From Helianthus annuus (Eukaryota > Streptophyta > Magnoliopsida > Asterales > Asteraceae), in the NCBI RefSeq assembly GCF_002127325.2, contig NC_035435.2, forward strand, positions 131,976,904-132,040,903: a stretch of 64,000 nt of DNA. The letters are read 5' to 3'. The position numbers and the translations under genes were made by a program. Shown one piece after another: positions 2,958 to 38,885 of the stretch. The notes under the pieces were generated by a model. That model saw only the letters and a program-made list of their open reading frames with translations. It was not told the DNA's origin and searched no databases. Numbering within the stretch: the stretch's first letter is position 1; each line of letters opens with the position of its first letter.

Positions 2958-2962
2958 GGAAC
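2958..2962. repeat. Target site duplication GGAAC, left
   Basis: The five bases before the TG of the left LTR are GGAAC. The same five bases follow the CA of the right LTR at 15722-15726. This fixes both ends of the ARID-carrying element and shows integrase-type insertion. Confidence 0.93.
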
Positions 2963-3522
2963 TGAAGATTAATGATAATCAAGTCCATCCGAGATTCGGT
3001 TTCGGGCCGGTAGCTTTATTATTTGTTTTAGTTTCGTTAATGGGTCAAACAGTTTATTGTTTTATGTTTATGTCTAGTATTTGGGCCGGAGGCCATGTCT
3101 AGTGGGTCGAACGAATTAGTGAGTCCATTAGGTTTATGTAATGTTGGAAAACAAGCAGATTGGGCCGAAGATAACGAACCGGTACGTCTTGTATAACTGC
3201 ACGAGCGGTTATGAGGGAAACGTCACCTCTCTTTGTCAAACGTTGTGACTCTTCAAGACGTACCTGTTGCTGCATATAAATTCGGTTCCAAATCCCTTGT
3301 TCCTGTACGTTGTTCTGCATTAGCAAGATTGTATTTATAAGAAGTCAAGTTCGATCAGTTTGTTTGTTCGGTTAGTTTACTATCGATTCGCAGATTGTTT
3401 GGTTAGTTTGTTCATAATGAAGTATTGTGATTATTGTGGTTTGTTTGAGAATGATTGTGTATGCGGTCACAACTCGATCCGTTCCGACTGGTCCTAGGTT
3501 TCCGATGACGATGATACCAACA
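2963..3522 (+). repeat. 5' LTR of the ARID-carrying element
   Basis: 560 bp, TG...CA. It contains a TATA box (3275-3281) and, 142 bases further, the ATG (3417) of the element's gene, so promoter, leader and the first 35 codons all lie in the LTR. Compared with the 3' copy it has TAG instead of TGG at 3495-3497. Confidence 0.93.
3275..3281 (+). promoter_or_regulatory. TATA box of the 5' LTR
   Basis: TATAAAT in a GC-richer context. It is conserved in the 3' LTR at 15474-15480. Transcription would be expected about 30 bases downstream, giving a leader of roughly 110 nt before the ATG at 3417. Confidence 0.6.
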
Positions 3523-3523
3523 T

Positions 3524-3536
3524 TGGTATCAAAGCC
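3524..3536 (+). other. Primer-binding site (tRNA-iMet type)
   Basis: TGGTATCAAAGCC lies one base after the LTR and matches the plant initiator-tRNA-Met primer site TGGTATCAGAGCC at 12 of 13 positions. Unusually it lies inside the protein-coding frame. Confidence 0.8.
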
Positions 3537-4424
3537 AAAGGTTTAACAGGAACCGGAAAGGGTTGTGATCATGATGGGAACCGGTTATGTGGAGACAAGG
3601 GAAAATCGGTTGAAACCGATTACGGTGAAGATGTTGTTCGTAGTGGAAAGTGCGGCCGGGCGGCGGAAGAAATGGATGAGTACGCGCAGGGGAAGCCAAC
3701 CATACGAACCGGGAAGTCACCGGTAAAGAAGTTTCCAAAGAAAATGGTTCCAAAGGGGTTCGTGAAGAAGTCCGGTAAGAAGGCAAATGCACCGGTGGGA
3801 AGGCCAAGGAAACCGAGAATTCGTTGCTTCAAGTGCAAGCAATTTGGTCATATCGCCTCGATTTGCCCAAGTAAGTATATTAATTTATCGCCATTACCGG
3901 TTGAAAGTGATTATGTGGTTAAGGATACATGTGGCGGTAAATGGGATTCGATATGGGTTGTTGATCCTACATACAAAACACACATGACGGGAAACCGGAA
4001 TGTGTTCAAATGTTTCAAGAGGCACTTTGGGGTAGTGACAAACGAGAGTAGGAAGGATTTCTCGTTTGTGCATGGTATTGGAGAAGTTAGTGTCCCGGTG
4101 GATGGCAAAGACAAAACGATCCCATGTGTAAGTTACGCTCCTAGTCTAGACAAGAACGTGTTAAGTCTAGAACAACTTTTGTTTCAAGGGATAGAAACAG
4201 TTACAATGGGGGATACATGTCTATTAAAGAAGATGTTTGGAAGTCGCTCGAAAGGGTTCGATATTTATGAAGATAAGTCAGAGGTTGACTTAGAACAAGA
4301 TTATCTCAACACGTTTTATGATAATCTTGGTGTTGATAACGGTTACAAGAAAGAAAAGAAGGAATTTAAAGAATGCTTGGAAGATTACTACGAAAGGGAA
4401 TTCGAAAAGGAAAGGAACAAGAAA

Positions 4425-4429
4425 AAGGT
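4425..4429. repeat. Target site duplication AAGGT, left
   Basis: AAGGT precedes the gypsy LTR here and recurs at 14455-14459 after its other LTR. Counting one copy of the five bases, the interrupted frame continues in phase across the insertion. Confidence 0.93.
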
Positions 4430-4897
4430 TGTCACACCCCCAAATTACCACCTAGGGAAAGTCCCTGTTAGGCGTGTGACGTACCAACAACGAGCCACTA
4501 ATTACATTGAACCAATACAAGTTTATAAATCAAATCCTCGAATATTAATGAAAATCACCATCAACGCGTTTAAACAAAAACCAACATGTTCAGCGGAAGC
4601 AAATAGTAAACCAATGTTAAACTGTTTCAAAAACCAATGTATACTATCAATAATCAATCACATGAAACCTTCAAGTCGACCCATGACCACTCCATCTACT
4701 CCAGACAGCAAGTTCCCAAATCCAAGACACCTAATGACCTGCGAGCATGCAACAAGTGTATCAGACAACGCTGGTGAGTTCAAAGTTTTGTTAACGTGCT
4801 TAGTCACCAGATGTGTGTTTAAGACAATTCAACGTTTTGTTTTGATGTTGTTATTACTCGATTACCGTATGTGGCGACTAGATGTGAATGCCCAACC

Positions 4898-4921
4898 CCA
4901 ATGCCTCCATTTAGGCATTGG
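4898..4921. repeat. Conserved LTR hairpin 1
   Basis: CCAATGCCT and AGGCATTGG pair as a 9-bp stem around a 6-base loop. A second copy is at 4996-5019. Equivalent hairpins lie at 11996-12019 and 12094-12117 in the other LTR, and in related LTRs at 31168-31191, 36735-36758 and 49431-49454. Confidence 0.8.
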
Positions 4922-4995
4922 TCATGAGGTCAAGGTATCAACAACCTTGAATAGATGTAAGGGGTCTTATATGTACACGATGAGAATGCCCAACC

Positions 4996-5019
4996 CCAAT
5001 GCCTCTAACTAGGCATTGG
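4996..5019. repeat. Conserved LTR hairpin 2
   Basis: Tandem second copy of the CCAATGCCT/AGGCATTGG hairpin, about 98 bases after the first, with a different loop. Each hairpin is followed by GGTCATGA. Confidence 0.8.
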
Positions 5020-5950
5020 TCATGAAGTCCAGGTAATTAGTTCACGCACGTCCTTTCGGCCCGGTGTGAGGGTGCCAAACCTAATAGCGCTATCAACTAA
5101 ATACCTCGTTGCTTCTTCAGCAACACGGTAGATGTACGGGGTCTTACATGATTTATACTGTGTTCAATAACCAACATCCCAATTAAACAGTTTACCCAGT
5201 ATTCCCTTCAGAAACGTTTACCAGATGTCCCAAACCACCGGGACGCATGCTTAGAAAAGTGCAGTGAACTCACCTTTGTTTTGCTCGGTAGAATTAATTA
5301 CCCGTTTAACAAAGTGATCAACCAAGCCCTATGATAGTTACACACGACAATCAGTTTGCATACAATCACAGCACGTAATATTCCACGTTCAATCCTCAAA
5401 CAGTGTACACGTATACAAATATTGACATTCTAAATATGTTGTATAATAACTCATTGACCATGTACAGTCCACAAAACATGAAGCCCAGTTAATCGTGTGG
5501 TTCGTTTACAAGCATGTGGCCCAACGGCTCGCGCCCACTTATTGCGGTTATACTAAATTACCAAATCTATTTATAACATTGTTCAAATGTCAATTCTAAT
5601 TTACAAATTAAACTAGTAACAGCCCACAACATGATTAATCACATAGCCCAACAACACAACAGTTGCATGTGCAACCCATTCTAGTCGAGTAACCACCATT
5701 GTACAATATGCCCATTTACCTACCCATATCTATTTCCAATTACCCACTAATGTCGGCCACCTCATTACACAATTCTCAACAATGGGCATTACAAGAAACA
5801 CGTCAATTATAAGGAACACACCATGATTGCACATGTCAACAGGCGTCCATTCCTAACAGTAATAGACAAGCATATTAGGGCCTTTAACATCTACCACTTC
5901 ATATCTATTAATACTTAATTTAGTATGTACAGTAACTTGACCAAGATTTG

Positions 5951-6051
5951 GACACGCCCAATGGTGTTGGTGAGTTAGATAAGGTGTAGAATAGTAGGAG
6001 GTCATGGGTTCAATCCCCATAATCTGCAAGTTTAGCCATTCAAAAAAAAAA
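5951..6051 (+). repeat. Short SINE-like element in LTR
   Basis: A tRNA-like A-box region (about 5966-5982), a perfect B box GGTTCAATCCC (6007-6017) and an A-run at 6042-6051. It is present in both LTRs of this element but not in the related LTRs at 30681 and 48966, so it entered the family lineage before this copy transposed. No clear target duplication seen. Confidence 0.5.
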
Positions 6052-7518
6052 TATACTAAGTTATATAATTAAATGCCCAAGCAACTTTGTTCAACAATAA
6101 CAATAATAGCATTGATTCAATAGTTAGGTGCACATGATCTGACATCCATATCAGTTTCACATGAATATATTTCAAGTCAACACCATGAATTAATTTTCAT
6201 GTCAGACTAATCTTTTACCCATGCCATTCTAAGCTTACATAGATTACCATGCAACCTTACTTCAATAGCACCCACATGCAAGGCCTTCATATCTCCTAGG
6301 TTACTGACAACATTTATGGACTTCCACTTTGTTTGATAATCACATGAACCGCCATTTTTTTTCATTCAAGTTATCATGCCTTATCAATCATTTAACATTA
6401 ATTCTATTGGACCTCTAAACATCAAGATTTATTGTGAATCACATATTATACATCACCAAATTAGTAATCAAGAAACTAACAATCCCTATTCTAGTCAACC
6501 CAATGATTCCTTATCTCCTAGATGATCCACCCCCCTTCCCCCCGTTACCAGCCGCGGACAACAACATCATGATATCGACATCCAATTTCACATAGCATAC
6601 TCATCATTAAAACACATCGTTTGCACTTTACATTAGAAACCATACAACTGTAATAATCAATATCACATATTATAACCACATAGTTAATCATCATACCTCA
6701 TTCAATAATACATATAACATTATCATGCAGGTATAAATAACAATAGACAAGAACTACTAACCAAGACTCTAATCGAATGAGATGCTAACTCGAATGAGGG
6801 GGGGTTCTGCCACTGCGATCGCGCAACTCAGGAGGAGCCTAGGGTTTTTGGTAGATTGATATTAACATATTAAGCTACCTAAGGGGTGTATATGCACTGA
6901 TGTATTGGCCGGCCCCAATCTACTAATCTACTTGGGCTTTACCAAGCCCAATCATGAATATGATGCATACATAAGTTCGGGTCTCTAATTGGTGCCCAAT
7001 ATAATTCATAGAGTCATAATAACTTGGAACAAGGGCCGCCGAGCCCACGTGGGCTTTACCCGGCCCAAGCATGACTTCGGTGCAATTGTGCTTGGTTTGG
7101 GCTTCGGCTCGTGTAACTTGGCCTAGAGTAACTTGTGTGTGTGCGTGGGCCGAAGGGGAGTGTGACAAGTGCGGCCCAAATGTAATCTAAGGCCCAACAT
7201 ACAAACAATAATTCTCGTTTACGTTAAGGTTTAACAATTAACAAATAGCAAGCGTTCACCGTAACGTGTGATAAAAACGTAGTGTAACAGGAATAATACC
7301 AGATTAAAAGTTATGAGGTTAGACAACGCTAAACTTGAAAGTTCGGGTTGTCACATCATCCCCAACTTAAAAGAAATTTCGTCCCGAAATTTGATAAGTA
7401 AGCACAGAGAAATGAGATGATAAATCAAGATTGTTGCGGATTTTTCCTCAGGTGCCACATCATCCCCAACTTGAAGAGGAATTTCGTCCCGAAATTCACC
7501 AGTAGTATCCGAATTTGA

Positions 7519-7640
7519 TTAGTCAACAGGAAAGAGCTGAGGTTACTTGAGTTTCATTTGATCCTTGCATCCCCACGTGAAATCCGGTCCACGTCTTGAG
7601 TCCCAACGAACACTCACGATTGGAATTTGACTAAGTTAAC
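7519..7640 (-). pseudogene. Gypsy pol C-terminus fragment
   Basis: The minus strand reads IPIVSVRWDSRRGPDFTW followed by a K-D-Q-M-K-L-K and P-Q-L-F segment, the typical end of plant Ty3/gypsy integrase. One internal stop interrupts it. The same domain appears independently at 21352-21570. Confidence 0.85.
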
Positions 7641-8848
7641 GAACCTTGACTTCTTGTCCATGTGTTCGCTAAATTTCTCCAGTAAAGGTATCGCACGTGT
7701 TCTAAATGACATCCCGTACGTTACCTGATTCGTCAGGTAACTCGAGTTTGTAGGTTACGCTTCCCGATTATTCCCAGACCGTTGAATGGTCCATTGTGTC
7801 GTCAGTTAAAGTCGCCATGCTTCCCAAGCATTCCACACCCTCCTAGGGTGAGACTTTCTACACAGTACGATCGCCTACAACGATCTTCCAGCGTTTCCCA
7901 CGTTTATCAGCTTTCCTGATGATCACGCGTTGCCACCAATCGGCTCCCGATCCAAACAACCTTCCCAAGAGTTTCGAGTACCAGTTCTGGACCAGTAATT
8001 AAGTTGTCAACCATCGTAGTCTAACAAGAAGGTTGGCATTATCGTCTATGCAATGCTTCAACAGAGCTGTCTGGTTACCAAGATGATAACTGCCGCAGTA
8101 GTACCCAACCATAGGTAAGAGTCCTTCCAATCCGCACCAAAGCCAGTCACACACATGCTCACAACATGTCTTCGAGTTCCAGGAGAGTTCGTCCTCTATG
8201 ATCGTTTATCCAACGGCGGTAAGCAATGCTCTGGTCCCAAACGCCGCCCCTCTTAGAGGAACATTCACAACTGTGAAGACTCGTAAGTCTTCTTGTTTGC
8301 AAGAAAATGTGCTAGTAACTTGAGTCCATCAATGATCACCCAGGTGATAATGTTTCCGTTTTGAGTTGTAAGTAGACTAGCAACAAAATCCGTGGCAGTC
8401 TGTTCTCATTTCCATACGTATGTTTCTGGTTGCTCATATCCCACCTAATTTTATCACATGCCAAACTTGTTCCCCATGCGTGGTTATGTGGGCCTTCAGG
8501 CCCGGTCACCCGTACATGGTCTTCAGGTTTTATTACATCCTATCGAAACTCAGATGAATAGGATATCGAGGCCCGTGTGCTTCACCTGCACCAGTTCCCT
8601 AAGGTTGCTGTATAGTGAGGTTCATATTCGTCCCATGAAGTAGCAAATATCATTCGATCTACCAAAGGTTGCTCCCCCATGCCCCGCATGGGTCAATATG
8701 GAGAAATCTCTCCCTTCAGTTCTTCAGTTTGGGCAAGGCGGGTCTGATCAGGTATGTTAGAGTCGATAGCAGGCTGCAAAGTTCGTGCACGTCCAGGTTT
8801 CACGGTCGTATTCATCCAATAGCTCCATCCAGCAATGTCGTTACATGT

Positions 8849-9181
8849 TTAGCTCCTTTCGAAACAAGGGTATACGGGAGGCCCTTGTGATCGGTCTTGG
8901 TAATGCATTTGGTACCGTCCAAGTAACGCCTCCAACTTAAATCCAAAGACCATGGCTTCCACCGTAGGTCGTAACTCGTGCAGTTCTTCCTGTAAGTCAA
9001 CTACGTAAACCATCATTTTCTCGTGCTGCATCGGTGTATGAATGGGACTCTGGTTCGAACCATAATGGTATACCACTGAATCACCCGCGCCCTCGGGTAA
9101 AGACGATGCTCCGTGCATTGTAGTGCTGGGTTTCCAAGGCTGGAAAGACGTCCTCCTGTTTTTTTTTTTTTTTACGAACAC
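8849..9181 (-). pseudogene. Gypsy RNase H fragment
   Basis: The minus strand retains the RT/RNase H boundary region. The segment EELHELRPTVEAMVFGFKLE corresponds to the 'thdlElaAvvfALK' region of Ty3/gypsy polymerases. In an overlapping frame, a Y-L-D-G-T-K-C-x-x-x-T-D-H-K-G-L segment (about 8850-8950) matches the 'YLyGtkcvvyTDHKsL' motif. The two frames show at least one frameshift. The catalytic TDHK remnant is visible. Confidence 0.75.
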
Positions 9182-9430
9182 AGCACCCGGCTGTGCTAAA
9201 GAGATTTAAGCTACGTGACCTTCGAAAATCATGTGATGAATGTGCGATAGTATCTTGTGAGACCGGGGAATTGTTGTACCGTCGAGGGATCTTTGGCGTC
9301 GCTCAATTTATAACAAAATGTATCTTAACGAGATCCCATGTATTCTACCTCGTCGATTACATGACCAGAAACGTACCTCTCAAATCCAGAAGTCACATTT
9401 ATCAAGCCTTCGCGCCGTGTGGCTCCTCCC

Positions 9431-9712
9431 TCAGGAGCTCTCAAATAAGATAGAAAGCTGTCCACGATGTTCTTTCCTCCTGGAAAAGATTAAAAATGTC
9501 ACCCAATAGCATGCTCGGTTCACATGATCCATAAGGCTGTTGGTGTGATGATTACTCCAAAGGTCATGGAATACAGAGTCGTATGGCCGAATTTTTGTCA
9601 GATAAGTCGCTGTAAAAAAAAAAACAACATTCTCCCCTTGGACTTCCATCTGATAATAGTTCGCTCGTAAATCAATCCTCGAATGAAAGTTCTTGCAACC
9701 CTCCTGGTGCAA
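9431..9712 (-). pseudogene. Gypsy reverse transcriptase fragment
   Basis: Minus-strand translation begins with C-K-x-F-H-S-R-I-D-L-R-A-N-Y-Y-Q-M, a clear counterpart of the plant gypsy RT palm motif 'FSKIDLRSGYHQ'. It then shows decayed versions of the 'nRvc...iySrt.EEH..HL' region. The Y-x-D-D catalytic box is not preserved. No product is expected. Confidence 0.8.
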
Positions 9713-9886
9713 GATGGTAAGAGTACGAGTATTCGGAGCTGCCTCTGGCGTGATATCAAACTGAGATTCCGCTTAACAGTTGTGGGAGTAAACCTGAAAA
9801 TTCCTTGGGTAGTACACCGAGAGAAATCTCGAACGATTGGTGGATCCTCGATCCTCTTTTCCTTAGCTTTACGTCAGTAACAGTTG

Positions 9887-10147
9887 TTAACATAGCAGGG
9901 TAATCCCTCCATAGACACTCATGGCTTTCATTGCTGAAATGACATTAACCGTTGCGCCACCCTGACGCGTTAGAACAGACATCAATCCTCCATTAAGGAG
10001 AGGGACACGTAAAATTTTCTCCTCACATGGTACATCTATCAAGAATAACAGGAGAAAGGTCGATGTCGAACACTTGTCCAACAAGGTCGAGTTTGCATCC
10101 CAACGGACATAGGAGGTTTCCTTTGACTTGCCGTCAGTTGGATCCAC
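9887..10147 (-). pseudogene. Gypsy protease-RT linker fragment
   Basis: The minus strand contains 'EEKILRVPLLNGG', a run 'GGATVNVISAMKA' and a downstream Gly-rich piece. These resemble the segment after the aspartic protease in Asteraceae-type Ty3/gypsy polyproteins ('EKIVRIPLPNGE...ISAmKA'). The protease active site itself is not recognised. Confidence 0.6.
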
Positions 10148-11511
10148 AACAAGTTCGGTTTCAAGAAGCGTCTGGGTTAAACAAAACAGAGACGAAGCGA
10201 TTTGCTACCCATACTAGCTACCATGTTGCTATTATCCTGGCGTCGCCCACGCCATTCCTAAATGCCCTTCCACGAGCATCGTTCCCAGTGTTTGTTGTTT
10301 TCGTTACGAGAATTTCCAGTACTGTCGCCGTTCCCTTGGTTGTGTGTCGTCTTGACTTAACAACGGCCAATCCATGTCGTAGGCACCTTCGTTTTCATAC
10401 TGCAAGCTACGATTACGTGTGCCTCAATGTCGTCGTGATTGTTGCCCTTAATGTCGTCGCTTGTAATGGGGTCCTATGACATTTCACCAACAGGGTACAT
10501 CTTTCACGTTCCGTGTTACGTACCAAGGCACTACTCACTGCGTGGGAAGTTACACATTCCACTCTATCGTCATTTGTCATCGCTTATGTCCCGATTGATT
10601 CGTAGGAGTTGACTCCCATTAGTCGCTGGCTAGGGTTAAGGATTCGGTTGAAGTCAATTTGCTGGTGTTCATTGCTGGTAACCATAGCCATTCTAATACT
10701 GAGGTCAGTGAGATACCACGCTTATCCTCTTGTCCATTGTTCTTGCAGGTCGACTGGGGTAATACACGGTATGTTGCTAGAGTGTTACAGAAGTGATCGC
10801 ACTTCGGGATCTAAGGCGCCAATATACTGAGTTCCAACCAAAGAAGAGGAGTGAGAAGGGTATCGACCAAACATTCGACGCTGCGACATCCAACTCAGGG
10901 ATGTCCGTACAAGCACCTTACATTCTATCTAGTTTGCTAGGCGTTCAGATGGGTGTTCAGGTAATGCTCGATAGCGTCGAGATTCGAAAGGTTTTAGAGA
11001 GAAGTGAAAAGGTCATGTTTGAGTAGGAGACAATCACTGCTATGGCTCCTATAGACTGTTGCGTTTCACATCAACCAAATAACGGAACGGAACCCCTTTT
11101 TCACTTGTTAAGTCTCACTGAGACTCACATGCACCCCACATTATTATTATGTGTGCACCCACAATAATATTGTGATTTGCACGCTCATCTCAGCTCCTCT
11201 TAACTCATGTCAAATGGTTCCTCAAACTCAAGTAGTAAGCAAGGAACATCACAAATTACGAGTCATGAATGTCTAAGGAAACACCACACTACCAATAACA
11301 TATCACGTGCAAGTAACGAATTCATACTGTTGTGCTAAACGTGCAATCACATGCAGTATCATATGTAAACGTTCACTAGTTATGCAGTACAATGGGTAAA
11401 CGAGAGACGAACCTTGCTATCTGGAGCTGAGTGTCATGGTCGATTTCGGTACTATTCGGTTATAGTCTGGTTTTATAAAAACGTTTTAAAACCAAGTTCA
11501 CTATAACCAGT

Positions 11512-11524
11512 GGCTCTGATACCA
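11512..11524 (-). other. Primer-binding site of the nested gypsy element
   Basis: Plus-strand GGCTCTGATACCA is the exact complement of TGGTATCAGAGCC. It lies three bases from the LTR edge and shows that the element runs on the minus strand. Confidence 0.92.
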
Positions 11525-11527
11525 AAC

Positions 11528-14454
11528 TGTCACACCCCCAAATTACCACCTAGGGAAAGTCCCTGTTAGGCGTGTGATGTACCAACAACGAGCCACTAAT
11601 TACATTGAACCAATACAAGTTTATAAATCAAATCCTCGAATATTAATGAAAATCACCATCAACGCGTTTAAACAAAAACCAACATGTTCAGCGGAAGCAA
11701 ATAGTAAACCAATGTTAAACTGTTTCAAAAACCAATGTATACTATCAATAATCAATCACATGAAACCTTCAAGTCGACCCATGACCACTCCATCTACTCC
11801 AGACAGCAAGTTCCCAAATCCAAGATACCTAATGACCTGCGAGCATGCAACAAGTGTATCAGACAACGCTGGTGAGTTCAAAGTTTTGTTAACATGCTTA
11901 GTTACCAGATGTGTGTTTAAGACAATTCAACGTTTTGTTTTGATGTTGTTATTACTCGATTACCGTATGTGGCGACTAGATGTGAATGCCCAACCCCAAT
12001 GCCTCCATTTAGGCATTGGTCATGAGGTCAAGGTATCAACAACCTTGAATAGATGTAAGGGGTCTTATATGTACACGATGAGAATGCCCAACCCCAATGC
12101 CTCTAACTAGGCATTGGTCATGAAGTCCAGGTAATTAGTTCACGCCCGTCCTTTCAGCCCGGTGTGAGGGTGCCAAACCTAATAGCGCTATCAACTAAAT
12201 ACCTCGTTGCTTCTTCAGCAACACGGTAGATGTACGGGGTCTTACATGATTTATACTGTGTTCAATAACCAACATCCCAATTAAACAGTTTACCCAGTAT
12301 TCCCTTCAGAAACGTTTACCAGATGTCCCAAACCACCGGGACGCATGCTTAGAAAAGTGCAGTGAACTCACCTTTGTTTTGCTCGGTAGAATTAATTACC
12401 CGTTTAACAAAGTGATCAACCAAGCCCTATGATAGTTACACACGACAATCAGTTTGCATACAATCACAGCACGTAATATTCCACGTTCAATCCTCAAACA
12501 GTGTACACGTATACAAATATTGACATTCTAAATATGTTATATAATAACTCATTGACCATGTACAGTCCATAAAACATGAAGCCCAGTTAATCGTGTGGTT
12601 CGTTTACAAGCATGTGGCCCAACGGCTCGCGCCCACTTATTGCGGTTATACTAAATTACCAAATCTATTTATAACATTGTTCAAATGTCAATTCTAATTT
12701 ACAAATTAAACTAGTAACAGCCCACAACATGATTAATCACATAGCCCAACAACACAACAGTTGCATGTGCAACCCATTCTAGTCGAGTAACCACCATTGT
12801 ACAATATGCCCATTTACCTACCCATATCTATTTCCAATTACCCACTAATGTCGGCCACCTCATTACACAATTCTCAACAATGGGCATTACAAGAAACACG
12901 TCAATTATAAGGAACACACCATGATTGCACATGTCAACAGGCGTCCATTCCTAACAGTAATAGACAAGCATATTAGGGCCTTTAACATCTACCACTTCAT
13001 ATATATTAATACTTAATTTAGTATGTACAGTAACTTGACCAAGATTTGGACACGCCCAATGGTGTTGGTGAGTTAGATAAGGTGTAGAATAGTAGGAGGT
13101 CATGGGTTCAATCCCCATAATCTGCAAGTTTAGCCATTCAAAAAAAAAATATACTAAGTTATATAATTAAATGCCCAAGCAACTTTGTTCAACAATAACA
13201 ATAATAGCATTGATTCAATAGTTAGGTGCACATGATCTGACATCCATATCAGTTTCACATGAATATATTTCAAGTCAACACCATGAATTAATTTTCATGT
13301 CAGACTAATCTTTTACCCATGCCATTCTAAGCTTACATAGATTACCATGCAACCTTACTTCAATTGCACCCACATGCAAGGCCTTCATATCTCCTAGGTT
13401 ACTGACAACATTTATGGACTTCCACTTTGTTTGATAATCACATGAACCGCCATTTTTTTTCATTCAAGTTATCATGCCTTATCAATCATTTAACATTAAT
13501 TCTATTGGACCTCTAAACATCAAGATTTATTGTGAATCACATATTATACATCACCAAATTAGTAATCAAGAAACTAACAATCCCTATTCTAGTCAACCCA
13601 ATGATTCCTTATCTCCTAGATGATCCACCCCCCTTCCCCCACGTTACCAGCCGCGAACAACAACATCATGATATCGACATCCAATTTCACATAGCATACT
13701 CATCATTAAAACACATCGTTTGCACTTTACATTAGAAACCATACAACTGTAATAATCAATATCACATATTATAACCACATAGTTAATCATCATACCTAAT
13801 TCAATAATACATATAACATTATCATGCAGGTATAAATAACAATAGACAAGAACTACTAACCAAGACTCTAATCGAATGAGATGCTAACTCGAATGAGGGG
13901 GGGTTCTGCCACTGCGATCGCGCAACTCAGGAGGAGCCTAGGGTTTTTGGTAGATTGATATTAACATATTACGCTACCTAAGGTGTGTATATGCACTGAT
14001 GTATTGGCCGGCCCCAATCTACTAATCTACTTGGGCTTTACCAAGCCCAATCATGAATATGATGCATACATAAGTTCGGGTCTCTAATTGGTGCCCAATA
14101 TAATTTATAGAGTCATAATAACTTGGAACAAGGGCTGCCGAGCCCACGTGGGCTTTACCCGGCCCAAGCATGACTTCGGTGCAATTATGCTTGGTTTGGG
14201 CTTCGGCTCGTGTAACTTGGCCTAGAGTAACTTGTGTGTGTGCGTGGGCCGAAGGGGAGTGTAACAAGTGCGGCCCAAATGTAATCTAAGGCCCAACATA
14301 CAAACAATAATTCTCGTTTACGTTAAGGTTTAACAATTAACAAATAGCAAGCGTTCACCGTAACGTGTGATAAAAACGTAGTGTAACAGGAATAATACCA
14401 GATTAAAAGTTACGAGGTTAGACAACGCTAAACTTGAAAGTTCGGGTTGTCACA
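11528..14454 (-). repeat. Gypsy LTR (5' LTR of the minus-strand element)
   Basis: Nearly identical to 4430-7355, including hairpins (11996-12019, 12094-12117), the SINE-like insert (about 13041-13150) and the GGCCCA cluster near 14010-14300. It ends at TGTCACA immediately before the AAGGT target duplication. Confidence 0.92.
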
Positions 14455-14459
14455 AAGGT

Positions 14460-15120
14460 GTACGGTGAAAGTTCGAGGGCAAGAAATAAGGAAATCGTGT
14501 ATTCCAAGAAAGCAAAGAAGGCGCTTTTAATTTACATCGAAGGTGAAAAGGATAATCCGCGTGAATCAAAAGAAACGCTCCGGGAACGAGCGTTAATTCT
14601 TTCACAACTCGAGGAAGACGTTATCGAAAGGAACATGATTATGGAAAGTTGTGTAGAACTGGGAGATCTCATAACTTTGCACGAAGAATTAAAGAATCAC
14701 CAAAGGTTTTTCGATGCTCCATTCGAAGAGATCTTGATTTGGTTTATTACGGATTTTCTTGGAATCGTATGTGAAAAGGCAATGCCACCCGAGTTGATTG
14801 ATGGCCGAGATCTTAGTCTCATCTTATTACATCGAATTGTAAAGCATAACGGAAGATTCAAGGAAGTAATGGAAAAGAACTTATGGGATGTGATCGCGGC
14901 CAAATATGGTTATGAACCGGATGATGCATATGAAGTCAAGGTTGCCTACATCTACTACTTGGAACTAGTTGAATGGTACTTCGACTACATGAGGAAAGAG
15001 CGTGGGAAAAAGGCAAACGTCATGGCTGGAAACTCAAGCAACAACGGCGGTTGGCTCGAAGAATCAAGTGACGATGAAGTGGTGGTCAAGATAGAGGTCA
15101 CCAACAACCGCAAGGAGTAA
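14460..15120 (+). pseudogene. CCHC/protease-like/ARID protein, 3' part
   Basis: Continuation of the gene at 3417-4429 after the nested gypsy element. It is in the phase the frame had before the insertion and is open to TAA at 15118. A charged, helical region (14460-14690) precedes an ARID/BRIGHT domain (about 14695-14995). The domain shows an F-x-x-I-x-x-W-F helix, P-P-E-L-I-D-G-R-D-L-S-L, the H-R-I-V-K-H-N-G-R-F turn, W-D-V-I-A-A-K-Y-G-Y and a final Y-x-x-Y-L-E-L-V-E-W-Y helix. These match the conserved ARID spacing, though the usual Gly-Gly turn is N-G. An acidic tail follows. ARID domains bind DNA, often AT-rich, in chromatin proteins. The stop lies 41 bases before the 3' LTR. Separated from its start by 10 kb, it is probably not expressed as a whole. 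Confidence 0.85.
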
Positions 15121-15161
15121 TCAAGGCTGGAGACTCGGATGTTCTTGCTTAGGGCGGTGAA

Positions 15162-15721
15162 TGAAGATTAATGATAATCAAGTCCATCCGAGATTCGGTT
15201 TCGGGCCGGTAGCTTTATTATTTGTTTTAGTTTCGTTAATGGGTCAAACAGTTTATTGTTTTATGTTTATGTCTAGTATTTGGGCCGGAGGCCATGTCTA
15301 GTGGGTCGAACGAATTAGTGAGTCCGTTAGGTTTATGTAATGTTGGAAAACAAGCAGATTGGGCCGAAGATAACGAACCAGTACGTCTTGTATAACTGCA
15401 CGAGCGGTTATGAGGGAAACGTCACCTCTCTTTGTCAAACGTTGTGACTCTTCAAGACGTACCTGTTGCTGCATATAAATTCGGTTCCAAATCCCTTGTT
15501 CCTGTACGTTATTCTACATTAGCAAGATTGTATTTATAAGAAGTCAAGTTCGATCAGTTTGTTTGTTCGGTTAGTTTACTATCGATTCGCAGATTGTTTG
15601 GTTAGTTTGTTCATAATGAAGTATTGTGATTATTGTGGTTTGTTTGAGAATGATTGTGTATGCGGTCACAACTCGATCCGTTCCGACTGGTCCTGGGTTT
15701 CCGATGACGATGATACCAACA
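15162..15721 (+). repeat. 3' LTR of the ARID-carrying element
   Basis: 560 bp, five transitions from the 5' LTR. TATA box at 15474-15480; the ATG at 15616 equals that at 3417. Here codon 27 is TGG, so the frame stays open through the LTR and 60 bases into flanking DNA before stopping. That short frame is a copy of the gene's first codons, not a separate gene. Confidence 0.93.
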
Positions 15722-15726
15722 GGAAC
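15722..15726. repeat. Target site duplication GGAAC, right
   Basis: Exact copy of 2958-2962, directly after the CA of the 3' LTR. Confidence 0.93.
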
Positions 15727-16503
15727 CCTTCCTCTCGTTTACCCACCTGCAGATTCTACAAGTCGTCCTTCATTCGTTCATTAGTTTAACTGGTCTAATT
15801 TGATCGGTCTCCTGCAAATTCTACGACGATTACACCGTGCACCATTGGAACCCCACCGGAAAACTTTGAACCTTCGGCAACGCCTCATCGTCGTTCATTC
15901 GTTTCAACTAGTTGGTAATTCTTGTGCAATTGTTTTAAGTTCTGCATAACAATCTTAAGTGTTGTGGTTTCATAATATCATAGTCGAATTAGTCGTTGAT
16001 GTTCATCGATTTGGGTTCTAAATACTCATATGATTTGAGATTAAACTGAGCATTGGTTACAAATATATTTTAAACTCTCGGTTAAACATCTAGTTTCTAT
16101 GAAAATTGCATTTGCATAAAGAAAGAAGTTTACTAATCCTATTCTACCATCTAGTTTCTATAAAAATTGTAGCTGTAGCTGCATGCCTTCTGTATTCAAA
16201 AGAAAGAAATACATAAACCCTTTCCTATCATCTAGTTTTTATGAAAATAGTTTCTTTTAGAGAAAAAAAAAGTGACTAATGTTGGTAAAATGTTAAACGA
16301 AATTTGCAGCCAAGAACTTGCGAACTTGCATTTTTGTTTATTTAATAATCGCTATAAATCTATAAATTTAGTTTATTAATATGACCCGGTCATAAACTAA
16401 AGTATATGTTTAATTTTCAAGGTTCTTAAACAAGGGAAAATACTACCCAATTCCTTTATATATAAAACTTATAAATTTTATTTATTTATTTATTTTTATC
16501 TTC

Positions 16504-16579
<76 letters not shown>

Positions 16580-17459
16580 TACACCAATTAGATTTTCTTC
16601 TCTGTTGTTGTCTTGTGTTAAGTGAGATAGATAAATACCTAAAGTTTATTTATTTAAAATTCAATCTATCCATTCCTTCTGAAATGACTAAACGCTTAAC
16701 GATTTTCAAGTAGTGTGTATATAAATTCTTTACGAGTTAGTCTTATAAATTCCCAACACCAAATTAATACCAAATTAAACAACATTAGAAAGTCTCAAAT
16801 CAAGAACCTGGATCACTAGACCCATTTTATCGTTCCGTTTATTTATAACATTTGTTATATCTATTTTGGGTGATTTGGTCAATTGCTTTACCTTGTGTAC
16901 TCATGCGGTAATTCTCGTGGATCGTTTCTTCACAACCCGTGAGTAATCTCTTCCATTTCCACCCTTTTAACTTTTCAAATTTTGTGGTGTATCATATTAT
17001 ACTTTTTGATTTACTTAACATGCTATGATCAAGTGTTGTTATGTGAACGTCTCATGTGTATTCTATTATTCTATATGCTATCTGATGTCAAGTTTATTGC
17101 ATGCTATTGTGTCTTGTGGTTCCACGGCTGACTAGGTTCCCCACGGCCATGGGTTGTAGCCTAGTATCACCAACAATATTAGACTCGCTCTTTGGGGCTT
17201 GAGACTGGTGCACGCTATTGTCATGAGTCTTATATTTAGTTGTTTTGTGTGGTTAATTGATTGTGTATTCTTGTTTGGGCCTTAGGAAATTAAATGGAAA
17301 TCTTATGATATGTTTGTTTTTGAACAATGTATGGAAAATTTTGATTATTATATGATATATGACAATTTAAATGGACATATTTTAAATATCGTAACAATGA
17401 TTAGTGCCAAGAGCTATGGGCACTCATCATGCCTCGTACCATTCCGCTGCAGGTCAAGG
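15727..17459. other. Intergenic DNA with short repeats
   Basis: No gene seen. Contains imperfect tandem copies of 'catctagtttctatgaaaatt' (about 16087-16250) and a long (AT)n tract (about 16508-16576). The part from about 16,840 to 17,459 has the look of decayed LTR sequence, but I could not find its ends. Confidence 0.45.
16508..16576. repeat. (AT)n microsatellite
   Basis: Almost perfect alternating AT over roughly 68 bases. Confidence 0.95.
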
Positions 17460-18465
17460 TGTGACACGATAATTAACAAATTCAAATTTCATTCATACTA
17501 AAAGGGAAACATACATCGTTTTGGAAAGGAAGATACAACATAGAGAATAACGTAACAACATGAAACAAAACATAAATTCAAGTTTAGGCGTGTTTCTAGT
17601 CCACCATAAATAATGTTCTTCGTTCGTCATCAACTAGTTTCCTGCAACATGTATTAAAATAAAATCAAGAAAAGTTGGCGAGTATACAAGTTTGAATACA
17701 TAGCATAATAGTGTCTAGAAAGTCGTCTCATATCCAACATGGCAATTTGTATATATCGTTATTTAACATACTAGTATGTGTTAACTATAGGTCAAACCAA
17801 AGTATACCGCAATCGTGCGTATCCTTGTCGCTGAAACGACAAGGCCGTAAAATAGTTTACTTAACAATACCACAAGAATACAGGCGGTGAGTTAATCCTA
17901 GAGCGCTATAGTTGTCAAGGTAGGTTTGTAAAGTTAATGAGCATATAGAACACAAGTTTAAGCATGACATGTAGTAATGAGAATGTAACAAGTATAATAT
18001 TTATAACCAATAGAGTATTTGCATAAATATGTTTAATCGTGAGTGAGTATTGGATTTGTATATATTTGTGTACATGTCACACCCAAAGTGTGTAAAACAA
18101 TAAATGTTATCGAGGATAGTCACGGTTTGTGTAGTAAGTCCACGAACTTGAGTTAATGCATTTGAGAGTTGAGTGAGACCGCTGAGTTATCCTACAAGGA
18201 TGAATGAGGCGTATGAGCTCGACGGAGTTTGGATTTGGAATGCAAAATGCAAGATGATTATTTAGTAGCAAAAATACATAAAACTTATCTTGACGAAATA
18301 CCCAAATTTGGACACCATGGTATAGTGTTCTTCATAGGCTTAAGTTGGCTTATTGGAAGTCCAAATTATGAGGAGTTTACATCAAGTTATTTTAACTATA
18401 TTCCTCTTGACATCAAAACCATGGATTGGTTAGCGTCTTAGGTTCCGTTAAATTTATAGATAAGT

Positions 18466-30680: not shown

Positions 30681-33223
30681 TGTCACACCCCAAAATTACC
30701 ACGTCGGGAGTGTCCCTGTTAGGCGCGTGACAAACCAATAACGAGCCACTAATCATACTGAACCAATCACGAGTGTTAAATAAAATCATCATTTATTACT
30801 GAAAATCACCGTCACTAAGTTTGAATGAAAACCAACATGTTCAGCGGAAGCAAATAAAATAAAAAAAATCATAGTTTAATTGTTTCAAATTAAATGTATG
30901 TAATCAATAAACTCAGCATTCGTATCCAATCAGCACGACCCATGACCACTCCAGCTACTTCAGACAGCAAGTTCCAAATCCATATAATCTAACGACCTGC
31001 GAGCATGCACCAAGTGTATCAGACAACGCTGGTGAGTTCATAGTTTTACGAAAACGTTGTTTACCAAGTATGTAGTTAATCCATTGAAGTTAATTCCAGA
31101 AGTAATGATGAAAACAATGTTGATAATACCCCAATACAAGACGGCTTCTGATTATTTTGCCCTTTCTCCAATGCTCCTATCAAAGCATTGGTCATGACTT
31201 GGTCATTAGTTCAACACCCGTCCTCCCAGGAACGGGGTGAGGTTGCCAAACCTAAGTAGCGCTACTAACTAATACCATGTTACCTTCCAGGTAACCAAAC
31301 AACACGGAGGGACTTTAAAGGTGATAGGAAGAGTATATTATCCAACATTCCCGTTTTTACCCAAAAGACTTATCCCTCCCAGGAATACCCACTGACTGTC
31401 CCAACCACCGGGACGCATGCTCAAGAGAGATGAACTCACCTTGGTTTTGCTCGGTAAGACTAGTTACTTTGTTTAACAGTTGAGCAATCAAGTCCTAGTA
31501 CAATTATCATTATAATCAGTTTCACATGTCCATAAGTCACGTAATCAACATGTTGCACACAGTGTAATAACAATCAATAACACATATTAAACATTCTGCT
31601 TGCATCCAAGTTTATTCATTAGTCCATGTTTGATCTATCCCATAACAGTGTTCGGCCCAAACACTACTATACTCATGTCCATTTATGAATTAAGCATACC
31701 TATTATGTTTAGCCAACACTAGTACGGCCCAGCTAGACACCGGCCCAAACAAAGTGAAGTCCAAGGGACTTGTGCGACCCTACTGAAGTATACATTCACA
31801 ATCTGGGTGTGCAACCCATGCGTGGCCCAGCACCAAGAATATGTGGTTAGATGGATGTGCAACTTGTAGTTGGGCACATCCCACTGTTAACCCTCGACCC
31901 CATGTTATTCTACCCAAAAGTTTTCAAAACAGAATAGTAGTTCATCAAACAACATATAATATTCAATAACAATCAATACCCAATTTACACCACAATCATG
32001 ACAACCGTTTCACAACCATATAGCTTAATTAATAATAAGTCTTTAAGGCCATACATCATTTTCATTGACTTTTGTCTAAAATAAGTGGTCCAATTATTAA
32101 CAATTTCTCATCATCAATATCCTAATACTCCTGTACATGCTCATGACCCAATCAGGTTGATACTTCATACGTACATGATCACATGATTTTATTAATTAAC
32201 ATGTATTCCTAACTGGTACATCTAAAAACAACATTCATGCAATTAATTCCCCAATCTGATTATCATAACAAGCTGGTAACAATTACAACTAATACATAGA
32301 TGCATATCATATTCTCACTATCCGAATCTAATATACATGCAACCCTAATCAAGATACAATTCAACCGACAACGTACGCCACACCCGTGCCTATTTACTAC
32401 ACATATATCACACTTCACATCCACTCTCCTTGTAAATTAAGCACACATACAAACAAGATCACACATAATTCCTACGATTAATCCAACACACAAATACGAT
32501 TATGTATTAACAAAGCTAGCGAGTAAAGGTTTGGCACAAACGCAAATCACTAACCACGCGTTTTGATCCGGAAAAGAGGCTGCTAACTCGAAGGGGGAGG
32601 GGGTATCGTCTGCCGTCGACCCAAAGAGATGTGGGGTTTCTTTTGCTGTGCGTGGTCTTGAAAAAGAGAAGTAGGGGTTTGCAAAGAGTTGTGAAGCCTT
32701 ATGTATTATTTACGTAATTAAAGGGGATGGGAGGTGGGCTCGGTTTGGTTTTGGTCCAACAAACAACCACCGCATGTGCAGCCCACTTAATGAAATAAAT
32801 CAAAATCACATGCTACTAGTTAAAAATCACATGCAGCTAGCTATTGATTGGAGCCTAATGTCGGCCCATGTGCTGAACAAATAATTAAGCTTATGCCGGC
32901 CCATGTGCTGAATAATTAGTAAGTTTATAAATATTAATTTGCATGAGATATGTTTAGTGATTTAATAATAGCGTTTCCGATCCATGACTAACAAAGATAT
33001 CCACAAAGATATCCTAAGTGTATGCGTGTGCCAAGATGTCCACATGCGACCCAAATGTAACGTGTGTGCGGTTTGAAACATAAATTCGATATAGACGGCC
33101 CAAAAGCATAATCGGCCCAATCGTCTACCAAGTTTAACATGAGAGGGAAACGTTGGAAAGGAATAATGAGAAATTAAGATCACGAACGAACTGGCACAAA
33201 CCTTGAAAGTCCGGGTTGTCACA
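30681..33223 (-). repeat. LTR of the young gypsy element (left)
   Basis: Starts TGTCACACCCCAAAATTACC and ends GGGTTGTCACA on plus. Contains the family hairpin at 31168-31191, the G-rich block near 32600 and several GGCCCA motifs. Confidence 0.92.
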
Positions 33224-36200
33224 TCATCCCCAACTTGAAAGAAATTTCGTCCCGAAATTTGACAAGTAGGAACTGAGGAGTGAAGTGAGGAAATTAGGAT
33301 TATTGCGGATTTTGCTCGGGTGTCACATCCTCCCCATGTTACAGAAATTTCGTCCTCGAAATTTAGGCTATATTATACTCTAGGCTCCAATTATGAGTTT
33401 GTCGATAATTCACTAAACACGTAGTTAAATACGGTTTCACGAAAGTTCACTAAATAATATATAAGTCATATAGCATATAAAGTCAGATAACATATAAATT
33501 CACATAAGTTATATTTCTTTATTTGCTCAGGAATAGTGTTCTAATTGTTCATCAACGTTCGAGTACAACCCATGTGTAATTCCGTAATTCCCCGAATTAC
33601 CGTTATGTGAGTGTTATGCATGAATGAGTGTTTGAGGTAATAGAGTTTGTGTTAATTGTGTTAAACTAAAAATGTCTTGCTCTTAAGTAGAAACACAAGT
33701 TGAGTTAATAGGAGCTTGATAATGAAGAATGTTGTGACAAGTTATGCTAAGCTCAAGAGATGCTCACAAAAGTTGAAATACGAGTGTGTCATACATCTGT
33801 ATGGCATTGCCTGATGCATTTAACATGTGCGACCGGGGGGGGGGGGGTTGTTGCACTAAATATAACTTGGGTGAGCTATACGCCTTCGAATTTGGGGACT
33901 TGCAAAAAGGCAGTGTTTAGTTATCATGGATGTTGTATATTAAGTAGCCAACACTTCACGAAGCAAGTGTATCTAATGTATATCTAGAGCTTACCAGGAT
34001 TGAGGCGAATGTCGTACATCATAAACGAAGGGTCGACGAGATAAACCGAACTGGAAATGTGTTAAGGTAGTTTGTTACAGGCTAAAATGCTCAACCCTCA
34101 AATCACGTGTGTCGGGTGCACTACCAAGATTTTCTCGAAGCAAAATATGTGAATGTGATAAAGTGAGTGTAAGAGATATATGTTTATATATGGTATCGCT
34201 ACCGGCGATCAGAACTGGTGCAGTCACCCCTATCGAAGATCAAAGGTGATGCCATTGTATGTAAGAATTCGAGAAAGAAAATATAATTTCTTGGAACAGG
34301 TGATTCAAGCAATTCAATCAATCGATTGAATGAAAACTCAAGTTAGGCATTAATCCCTATTTCAGACTGGTATCATCTTGACTCGTTCGTTCAGAGGGAA
34401 AAGAGATTTTCAGTTGATATTGATCGTGATATTTTGGTCGCAGTTGATTGTAGTAGATGACCAGCCTTCGGTCAAAGAGAGATAAGCATGGAACAAAGAG
34501 GTCGATGAAGCTATACATGAGTATGGTGCTTTCACACAAGAGGGAATTTTGACCTTGGCATACCTTACGTAAGTAATAATTTTATTTTTATGTTCTTGCA
34601 CTTGATGATCTTAAGTATGACTCATTCCTCGAGTGACGTTCGTAGAGAGTGATTTAGCCAAGCAAGGATTAGCGTATAACAGGGCTATGCAAGAACTATG
34701 GTATTCATTTTAGCACAACAAGATAAGACGCGAAGAATATACCAAAACGCGGTTATCATAAATCTGTTCCATCTAATTGTTTTAGAATCACGAGTAAAGT
34801 AGCAAATCCGATGATGAGGATGTAGCTGGTCGCAAACAAGAAGTATAAATGGAAATAAAGTGATGTACCAGTCGATGGAAGCGTTACTTTGAGGGTGTTG
34901 GCGCAAGAAGAATTATCTATGAAGGTGATAGTTGGCTAAGTCTGTAGCATCTCGGTTAAATCAGAGCGTTCTCTACAGTCGTCGAGCTGCTTGTATGCGA
35001 ATAAGAATAGATTCACTAAGATCCATGTAAGTAATTGAGTATGCAATTAGTCGAACATGTATGCAACCAAGTTTGAAGGTTTGAACTAAGACGGGTGTAC
35101 TGGGGACATCACATATGTCGCCAAGAGGTTTCATTACAAAGGCATGTAAAGGCGTTCAAAATGGTATGGTGATGATAACAATACATCATCATTTTCAGAT
35201 TCAATATTGAAATGATGGAACTGTTCTTATGGAAATCCGTTTGCAGAGTTAGATATGTTAGGATGAAAACCAGGTTAGACTAACGATAAGTCACAAGGCA
35301 GTATAATGGGGCCAAAGGGAATTTTATGGTTAAGTGCAAGGGGTAAAGTATTAGTGTACGAGGGATTCTTCATACTACGTTGATATGCTGATGTCGAAGA
35401 GCTTACACTAAGAGTCTTGTAGGGTTTAGATCGAGATAACAGGTTCTGATGAGAATCTTAGTTTCACCAAGTTTCTTACATGAGTAAAAGAAAAATAATG
35501 AGGGATTCCCGTGATGATAGCTCATTGTGTTCGAGAACATCTTCGGTCTAATAGTTGCGCCTATCAACTACCGCATGGGTTTAACTGTTCCAGTTAGTCG
35601 TTGAGTGGTTTATGAGAACTTCTACTAGCGCTACGGAAGTTATAAGCAAATAAAAAAAAATATCACAGGTTACACAAAGATTCACATGCATCCACAAGAA
35701 TGGTGGAAAGAATAAGGATCAAGATTGAATAGAAGTCAATCATCGCCATAACCCCAACAGATTGTTGAATCCCCAGTTATGTCGATTAATGAGTCAGAAT
35801 CCCTTTCACACTTGCTAAGCCTCACTGGGACTCACATGCACCCCACATTATTATTATGTGTGCACCCATAATGATAATGTAATTTGCATGTTTATCTCAG
35901 TTCCTCTTAGCTTGTGTCAAAAGGTTCCTTAGATTCGAGTAGCAAAACGAACGTTGTTAAGATAGTAAAGATCACAAAAGTCTAGAGGTTATGCCATACT
36001 AACAATGCATCATAAGGTAGACAAATAATTACATGTAATCAATCATACTATAGTGCTGAGTGTGTAGCCATATGCAATGTCATAAGTAGGTGTACGCTAG
36101 GCACGTAATGCATAAGGTAAATAAAAAACGAACCTTGCAATCTGAAGCTGAGTGTCATGGTCGATTTCAGAACTGTTCGGTTATAGTCTGGTTTTATGAA

Positions 36201-38791: not shown

Positions 38792-38885
38792 TATTATAAC
38801 ATAACTTAATATGACACATGACACTAGGGTCTTATATAGGTTTTGTGCTATTAATATAGGTTTTAGTGGCACTTGACACGCCTTT
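38792..38885 (+). mobile_element. CACTA continuation
   Basis: TATTA duplication followed by CACTA-type repeat phrases (ataacttaatatgacac, gacactagggtcttata), ending where the next gypsy LTR starts. The right end of the CACTA element must lie beyond the window or beyond the copia element. Confidence 0.6.

Follow-up and report, generated by a model that had tools for sequence, protein, structure and literature searches.

A family of small LTR elements in sunflower that carries a CCHC-ARID protein

Anatomy of the locus and its encoded protein

The window analysed here, a stretch of 64,000 nucleotides of the Helianthus annuus genome (contig NC_035435.2, positions 131,976,904 to 132,040,903), contains at 2963–15721 an ARID gene enclosed by two LTRs (Table 1). 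The original prediction described matched 560-bp LTRs, a GGAAC target duplication and a tRNA-iMet-like primer site, and all three were confirmed. Self-comparison of the window showed that the LTRs are 99.1% identical, with 5 mismatches in 560 gap-free positions, and they have TG...CA ends. The outer boundaries of the predicted element also hold, but most of the interval between them is a second LTR element, which is approximately 10 kb long, has 2.93-kb LTRs and carries its own AAGGT duplication. The ARID element proper is therefore only about 2.7 kb in size and its ORF is split, so that the single gene predicted to encode a CCHC knuckle, a protease-like region and an ARID domain lies in two parts, although the domains themselves were confirmed with Pfam. 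The nested element is probably in minus orientation because a weak RT_RNaseH fragment (E 0.015, below the Pfam cut-off) sits on its minus strand; three other fragments of it gave no Pfam match. The window copy also has an in-frame stop codon at 3495–3497 in the 5' LTR, which is absent from its 3' LTR. The neighbouring copy L036, which lies about 80 kb from the window locus, is a segmental duplicate of the 3' part of this locus (window 11936–17690). The window locus is a disrupted member of a large sunflower family of such small elements.

Table 1 Features of the ARID element and of the element nested in it (window coordinates)
Feature	Position	Strand	Basis
GGAAC target-site duplication, left copy	2958..2962		Sequence read, partner at 15722..15726
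5' LTR of ARID element, 560 bp, TG...CA ends	2963..3522	+	Self-comparison
LTR-internal ORF start, ATG + 35 codons	3417..3522	+	Sequence read; relatives begin MKYCDYCGL...
Primer site, tRNA-iMet type, TTGGTATCAAAGCC in window copy	3523..3536	+	Sequence read
ORF N-terminal part, left of nested insertion, 251 codons (P0001)	3672..4424	+	
Zinc knuckle zf-CCHC	3822..3872	+	Pfam PF00098, E 2.1e-5, over cut-off
Copia Pol_BBD, protease-type beta barrel	3954..4187	+	Pfam PF22936, E 2e-10, over cut-off
AAGGT target-site duplication of nested element, left copy	4425..4429		Sequence read
Nested long-LTR element; LTRs 4430–7355 and 11528–14454, 99.3% identical	4430..14454	− (probable)	Self-comparison
AAGGT target-site duplication of nested element, right copy	14455..14459		Sequence read
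ORF C-terminal part, 221 codons + stop (P0002); frame as 3672–4424	14455..15120	+	
ARID domain, profile 24–85 of 89	14788..14961	+	Pfam PF01388, E 2.8e-8, over cut-off
Candidate polypurine tract (weak), purine-rich AGGGCGGTGAA, before 3' LTR	15151..15161	+	By eye, one copy
3' LTR	15162..15721	+	Self-comparison
GGAAC target-site duplication, right copy	15722..15726		Sequence read

The full ORF of about 557 codons begins within the LTR and spans the primer site; in L031, the 557-aa ORF is the sole ATG-initiated ORF of at least 150 aa. The protein consists, in this order, of an LTR-encoded Cys/His N-terminus (the motif C-x2-C...C-x-C-x-H, then ...SDDDDTN), a basic stretch with the AT-hook-like GRPRK, the CCHC knuckle, a protease-fold domain, a helical region and the ARID domain. 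The ARID match of the window copy reached 34.5 bits against the curated Pfam cut-off of 24.1, and the ARID, PF22936 and zf-CCHC profiles were matched in 32, 34 and 26 of the 44 A3 members, respectively, fragments included. A PDB profile search with the ARID part gave 17 matches, 16 of which were ARID chains. The fold-comparison matches of the predicted structure to ARID cover approximately 14713–15024 with an identity of 12–28% across 13 ARID rows; beyond the ARID region, the models were weak. The canonical catalytic motif of proteases is D(S/T)G; where it would be expected, the Pol_BBD domain of the inspected copies has DPT. No Gag capsid family was found among the Pfam matches of the 44 members (E up to 0.01) or in L061–L063 (E up to 1), the knuckle alone being matched. 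The Copia pol order is absent and, as seen from the ORFs of L031, the ARID elements encode no integrase, reverse transcriptase or RNase H.

Copies in the sunflower genome

A genome search with the ARID piece yielded 1502 candidates. The 150 matches scored were distributed over contigs C1–C17; 131 were stop-free within the match and open frames of at least 540 aa were present in 90 of these copies. Eighteen of the 20 loci fetched had an LTR pair 2.1–2.7 kb apart, and 16 of these 18 had the primer site (one C/T position being left free). The 14 loci with scorable ends comprised 11 with an exact 5-bp target duplication, two with a match at 4/5 positions and one at 2/5. For this scoring, the canonical ends that matched best within 12 bases were taken, a choice that somewhat favours a duplication match. 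For comparison, TG/CA pairs drawn at random from these loci matched exactly over 5 bp in 11 of 10,000 draws. Inspection by eye found exact duplications at all four loci of a diverged subfamily (L053–L056). They are thus known from 20 loci (the window, the 11 scored loci, L028, L030, L053–L056, L062 and L063); a matching duplication was absent at L023, L044 and L061. The LTR pairs were mostly 98–100% identical. These data show that the family inserted recently. That CCHC-ARID proteins are spread as a mobile LTR family, as had been proposed for the window locus, is well supported by copies on C1–C17 with LTR pairs, differing target duplications and primer sites. Homologues in syntenic positions without LTRs would have spoken against the proposal; the copies lie instead within LTRs at unrelated sites.

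A search with the window LTR, in which 40 of 429 candidates were scored, gave short LTR pairs except for the window's own and three that were 10.7–10.9 kb apart. A nested long-LTR element interrupts the ARID element at L051 (C7:1108xxxxx), as one also does in the window copy and at L045 (C3:3106xxxx). A further long LTR pair lies at C4:1777xxxxx. L057 and L058, LTR pairs for which no ARID match had been listed, enclose broken ARID ORFs, L059 is an LTR only and L060 is a partial copy.

Distant relatives have the same design. Three of the 150 ARID loci were checked (L061–L063, 25–29% protein identity), and they proved to be short LTR elements whose ORFs begin inside the LTR; their LTRs are 99.7–100% identical. 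The LTRs of this second family start with TA, not TG, at L061 and L062. Among the 40 of 293 candidates scored in a search with the second-family LTR, only pairs 1738–1751 bases apart and four single LTRs were found, identical LTRs occurring on six contigs. The second-family LTR end together with the primer site occurs at 43 places, and in a comparison by eye 38 of them coincided with the beginning of a matched ARID ORF; C13:139652661 sits behind a listed ARID match, and C13:113563902 is another of the five sites away from ARID ORF starts. No autonomous partner was found among the candidates scored with either LTR. At L065, the second-family LTR and ORF start are followed by Copia gag_pre-integrase, SH3 and RVT_2 domains and by an integrase-core match below the cut-off. 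Its ARID-like part, 98% identical to a C10 copy, stops abruptly at the knuckle, and a second LTR was not found among the 40 of 924 matches scored; L065 may therefore be a one-off recombinant rather than a helper. L064 and L066 have a different central region and a partial ARID; two Pfam matches to unrelated viral families there were below the cut-off.

Selection on the protein and on the LTR end

The pooled dN/dS of copies chosen by protein similarity was 0.138 for P1 (30 copies), 0.102 for P2 (31 copies) and 0.070 for ARID. The ratio decreased from 0.27 in the closest pairs to 0.09 in the most distant ones, and was 0.091 for L061/L062. In four between-subfamily pairs, the differences at the three codon positions (0.09–0.17/0.05–0.11/0.45–0.55) were strongly third-position-biased. 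This shows that the protein was kept under purifying selection during the spread of the family. Non-coding LARD and TRIM elements are classed as such by having no conserved coding capacity, which does not describe elements with a dN/dS of 0.07–0.14.

The LTR-embedded ORF start was read in 20 of 21 copies, with an in-frame ATG in 17 of the 20, and sequence divergence falls directly 3' of this ATG. Most copies read have the primer site TTGGTATCAGAGCC, which we take to be a match to plant tRNA-iMet and which is translated as IGI(R/K)A inside the ORF. The synonymous difference was 0.000 in LTR codons 24–35 and 0.019 in the primer-site codons, compared with 0.389 in codons 2–13, showing that overlapping nucleotide constraint acts on the LTR end and the primer site.

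Proposed mobilisation, alternatives and related systems

We consider it probable, at roughly 0.78, that these elements form a non-autonomous, Copia-derived LTR retrotransposon family encoding one protein of about 557 residues with CCHC, protease-fold and ARID parts. Transcription from the LTR would produce an RNA with the ORF beginning near the LTR end and reading through the primer site. Without a reverse transcriptase or integrase of their own, the elements are presumably mobilised in trans, and a Copia element would supply capsid, reverse transcriptase and integrase. The protein may bind its own RNA through the CCHC knuckle and the basic region, which would amount to cis preference, and the ARID domain and AT-hook-like motif may engage nuclear DNA or chromatin; this engagement could help the expression, nuclear retention or integration of the copy. 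A more speculative extension is a two-part system of an old, diversified ARID lineage and a Copia helper. The helper would give capsid, reverse transcriptase and integrase, and the ARID element would give a protein that binds RNA and DNA, works in cis on the RNA of its own copy, and steers the cDNA to chromatin or protects it there. The ARID lineage would have survived many generations of helpers, and this would account for the near-saturated synonymous divergence, for families with 25–29% identity having a common LTR-embedded start and for the still-identical LTRs.

It is possible, though doubtful, that the protein of such an element acts against the helper or against host silencing and not on its own RNA. 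Lacking a capsid, a knuckle protein could act as a poison or a parasite of helper particles; alternatively, the ARID could keep LTR chromatin open. This would produce an identical sequence anatomy; no Pfam capsid domain was matched, and passages of PMC7730604 mention a truncated Gag restricting Ty1. However, a trans benefit common to all copies would not obviously select the ORF of each copy so strongly. Public annotation as transcription-factor or ARID-family genes and the purifying selection would both suit a plant-serving CCHC-ARID gene that was captured or duplicated and whose frame is kept by host selection. This is improbable in view of the exact target duplications at 20 loci, the 98–100% identity of most LTR pairs, the start codon in the LTR, the ORF over the primer site with its nucleotide constraint there and at the LTR end, and the design common to families 25–29% identical. 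That the ARID piece was picked up by chance as LARD-like cargo, with a protein unneeded for movement, would fit the absence of a polymerase and the state of the window copy, disrupted by a stop codon and an insertion, but is made very improbable by the dN/dS of 0.07–0.14, the third-position bias in the sample used and the long open frames in 90 of the 150 copies. Spread through segmental or tandem duplication, a concern raised with the original prediction, applies to L036 and is in line with the head-to-tail arrays of 2190-bp units that exist, but it is hardly credible for the family. For copies with their own duplications it is contradicted, because most scorable loci have exact 5-bp duplications that differ from one another and identical second-family LTRs occur on six contigs.

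The trans-mobilised Copia derivative that we favour resembles plant Ty1/copia elements in having the CCHC knuckle and Pol_BBD in Copia order, a 5-bp target duplication and an iMet-type primer site, but it lacks integrase, reverse transcriptase, RNase H and the catalytic protease motif. Chromoviruses are autonomous Ty3/gypsy elements with an integrase-fused chromodomain; they likewise bear a chromatin-protein-type domain, whereas the ARID occurs without an integrase. The start codon of Ty1 sits in its LTR. Passages of PMC4974528 place the Ty1 initiator tRNA-Met primer site within the GAG ORF; the primer site is thus inside the ORF in both elements, although Ty1 is an autonomous gag-pol element and the sunflower element is polymerase-less and ARID-bearing. 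Terminal-repeat elements with one retroelement protein (TR-GAG/TR-RTEs) are described for sunflower in parts of PMC9784723 and PMC11728184. As far as those parts go, they share with the ARID elements the short length, two LTRs around a single ORF and the lack of a full pol, and tandem units with common LTRs are reported for the Galadriel TR-GAGs. The ARID elements differ in having no matched Gag capsid and in possessing the ARID, an inactive-looking protease fold and the LTR-internal ORF start; neither paper uses the term ARID in its main text. HadGAG1–3, domesticated sunflower GAG-host fusions presented in a portion of PMC9784723 as multi-exon genes without LTRs, also join a retroelement protein to a host-type domain, whereas the ARID elements are LTR-flanked and multicopy. 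ARID4A, KDM5/JARID and BAF250b are similar in ARID sequence profile and perhaps in predicted fold, but the ARID here has 12–28% identity to the 13 ARID rows and is embedded in a retroelement protein. Searches of an open-access library turned up no publication about ARID domains in LTR retrotransposons.

Non-autonomous LTR elements are usually regarded as passengers or spare Gag sources. This family keeps a chromatin-type, DNA-binding-type protein under strong selection while being enzyme-free, which makes the gain from the domain (targeting, expression or silencing escape) testable. Our results also suggest that many sunflower ARID and CCHC transcription-factor entries are transposon proteins, which bears on annotation and on claims of ARID gene expansion. 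The original prediction mentioned CCHC-ARID proteins annotated in some Asteraceae; all named homologues found belong to Helianthus.

Anatomy of the ARID-bearing LTR element

The LTR pair (Table), which ends in TG...CA and is flanked by GGAAC on both sides, was confirmed as originally predicted by both self-comparison and reading of the sequence. The proposal of a single gene between the LTRs held only in part. The interval is not one gene, as it contains a separate, nested LTR element with its own target duplication, AAGGT, but the two flanking ORF pieces share one frame across it. Without this insertion, the outer element measures about 2.7 kb. The two pieces, run separately against Pfam, gave matches above the Pfam cut-offs: Pol_BBD (2e-10) and zf-CCHC (2.1e-5) in the left piece and ARID (2.8e-8) in the right one. 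Both zf-CCHC and ARID, the domains named in the prediction, are thus present, and no polymerase is encoded.

Nested long-LTR elements, with LTR parts 99.7 and 99.9% identical, also interrupt two other ARID elements, L045 and L051. A repeat array lies immediately left of the window element, and the LTRs of a further long-LTR pair in the window have part similarity to those of the nested element.

Table. Coordinates of the features; bare positions are those of the window, C numbers denote contigs of the sunflower genome
Feature	Position	Remarks
ARID-bearing LTR element	2963-15721	
5' LTR / 3' LTR	2963-3522 / 15162-15721	5 mismatches per 560 (self-comparison)
ATG in 5' LTR	3417	
Left ORF piece	3672-4424	
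Nested LTR element	4430-14454	LTRs 2.93 kb, 99.3% identical
Right ORF piece	14455-15120	
Repeat array	1382-2528	diverged, CATGATCATG-type core
Further long-LTR pair	30681-33224 / 36248-38792	2.54 kb, 99.8% identical
L036, segmental duplicate	C3:132069500-132075300	of window 11936-17690, 98.5%
L052, array of ARID elements	C9:32636000-32645900	units 98-99% identical
Two second-family units	C9:128598342 / 128600091	spacing 1749 bases
L064, variant locus	C16:189639600-	
L065, variant locus	C3:145476000-145478600	
L066, variant locus	C11:183909400-	

Mobile copies in the sunflower genome

The sunflower assembly containing the window (3.01 Gb) was searched with the ARID piece, and the best 150 of 1502 candidates, distributed over contigs C1-C17, were scored. 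No stop occurred within 131 of these matches (counted from the match table), and 90 had an open frame of at least 540 aa. The surroundings of matches 2-21 were fetched, and 18 of these 20 loci had an LTR pair (identity 96.2-99.8%); no pair of the expected kind was found in L036 or in the split L045. The target duplication was exact at 11 of the 14 loci with scorable ends, matched at four of five positions at two and at two of five at one; a further four loci were not scorable. In a chance control, random TG/CA pairs matched exactly in 11 of 10,000 cases, although the real ends had been taken as the best-matching within 12 bases, so that a match was somewhat favoured. The claim that CCHC-ARID proteins are spread as a mobile LTR family is borne out by these data, and both its anatomy and mobility are well supported. 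Segmental duplication, envisaged as the alternative, did occur at L036, the copy closest to the window, which lies about 80 kb downstream and covers the 3' half of the window locus including the nested LTR, but the exact target duplications argue against it as the general explanation.

The difference of 0.9% between the window LTRs corresponds to about 0.35 million years at a rate of 1.3e-8 (PMC7730604). A tree of 34 right pieces set two subfamilies apart with full support. In four copies of the diverged subfamily (right piece 74-78%), every locus had an exact duplication, and the LTRs were 98.5-99.7% identical. Of four other loci, L028 and L030 had exact duplications, L029 lies within an array, and none was found at L023. 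The array L052 consists of head-to-tail ARID elements with common LTRs and five LTR-primer junctions 2190-2191 bases apart. Two units of the second family described below also lie close together on C9.

Selection on the protein and nucleotide constraint

Pooled pairwise dN/dS was 0.138 for the left piece (30 copies) and 0.102 for the right piece (31 copies), and by domain 0.105 for Pol_BBD, 0.215 for the knuckle and 0.070 for ARID, the pairs being non-independent and the copies having been picked through protein similarity. Among 25 copies (five with gaps or truncation were left out), the ratio fell from 0.27 in the closest pairs to 0.09 in the most distant ones, the trend to be expected of selection that works on the replicating lineage and ends upon insertion. 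Synonymous distances between the subfamilies were mostly too large for correction; in four between-subfamily pairs, differences at codon positions 1, 2 and 3 were 0.09-0.17, 0.05-0.11 and 0.45-0.55, with third-position change in ARID of 0.53-0.60. Caveats notwithstanding, an element without need for its own protein should not show such a pattern.

The N-terminus of public homologues (MKYCDYCGL...SDDDDTN-IGIRAKG) is encoded in the window from the ATG in the 5' LTR across the end of the LTR and on through the primer site. In this copy, the 5' LTR carries a stop which is absent from the 3' LTR. In 21 aligned copies, nucleotide divergence in blocks of 60 bases was 0.18-0.33 across the upstream LTR, dropped right after the LTR ATG and reached its minimum (0.016) at the LTR/primer-site junction. 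Leaving out one copy without the site, the in-frame ATG was present in 17 of 20 copies, and synonymous difference in these 20 was 0.389 in codons 2-13, 0.164 in codons 14-23, 0.000 in codons 24-35 and 0.019 in the codons of the primer site. Since replacement difference exceeded synonymous difference both in codons 24-35 (0.029) and in the 13 codons past the primer site (0.044 vs 0.023), nucleotide-level constraint overlaps the code there. It would come from reverse transcription, the integration end and perhaps packaging. The primer site of Ty1 likewise lies within GAG (PMC4974528). Both ends of the internal ORF had low synonymous difference (0.074 in codons 1-30 after 3672 and 0.111 in the last 40 before 15120, compared with up to 0.34 in ARID), perhaps owing to RNA signals or recombination.

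Related elements and the proposed mechanism

With the Pfam ARID model, the best 150 of 1349 genomic candidates were scored, all above the cut-off; compared by eye, none lay at the places of the 150 ARID-piece matches. Arabidopsis has about ten ARID genes. Three of these 150 loci were fetched (L061-L063), and all three were short LTR elements (LTRs 355-392 bp; identity 100, 100 and 99.7%) with Pol_BBD and ARID above the cut-off and a CCHC knuckle that fell short of it; their ORF starts within the LTR and runs across an iMet-type primer site. Target duplications were exact in L062 and L063 and not found in L061. The proteins are 25-29% identical to the window family (L061 vs L063, 54%), and dN/dS for L061/L062 was 0.091. 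Among the best 40 of 293 candidates for the L061 LTR, pairs were 1738-1751 bases apart and 12 matches, over six contigs, had the full score; exact matches (100%) to the L061 protein lay at five places, distributed over four contigs (best 88 of 11,081 loose candidates).

As no polymerase is encoded, reverse transcriptase and integrase are needed in trans for copying, and would most likely be supplied by Copia elements in view of the BBD, the 5-bp duplications and the primer site of iMet type. That the ORF of the element is itself under selection suggests that the protein aids the RNA encoding it. The CCHC knuckle and basic region may bind this RNA, and the ARID and AT-hook-like motif may act on DNA or chromatin.

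Sunflower TR-GAG elements (terminal-repeat non-autonomous elements with a single retroelement protein) and related single-protein elements have already been described (PMC9784723, PMC11728184), as have transcribed sunflower retrotransposons (PMC7730604). The word ARID is absent from the main text of these three papers, and no ARID-bearing LTR element turned up in an open-access library. The element shares the plan of known single-ORF non-autonomous LTR elements but differs in its unexpected cargo under strong selection. Its named protein homologues are all from Helianthus, a range possibly understated by a search which sees only relatives sharing 5-residue words, and in the annotation most of them appear as transcription factors of CCHC or ARID type.

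At L065, an ARID-element LTR with the ORF starting inside it and the knuckle is fused to pol domains of Copia type (gag_pre-integrs 4e-16, RVT_2 6.8e-28); the ARID-type part stops at the knuckle, with the breakpoint inside it. No second LTR was found among the scored matches (best 40 of 924). This single locus hints at recombination with Copia RNA. L064 and L066 have the same LTR and ORF start; their central region differs, being acidic, and their ARID is partial (36-39% identity). In L064, parts of the LTR are repeated about 1.34 kb apart.
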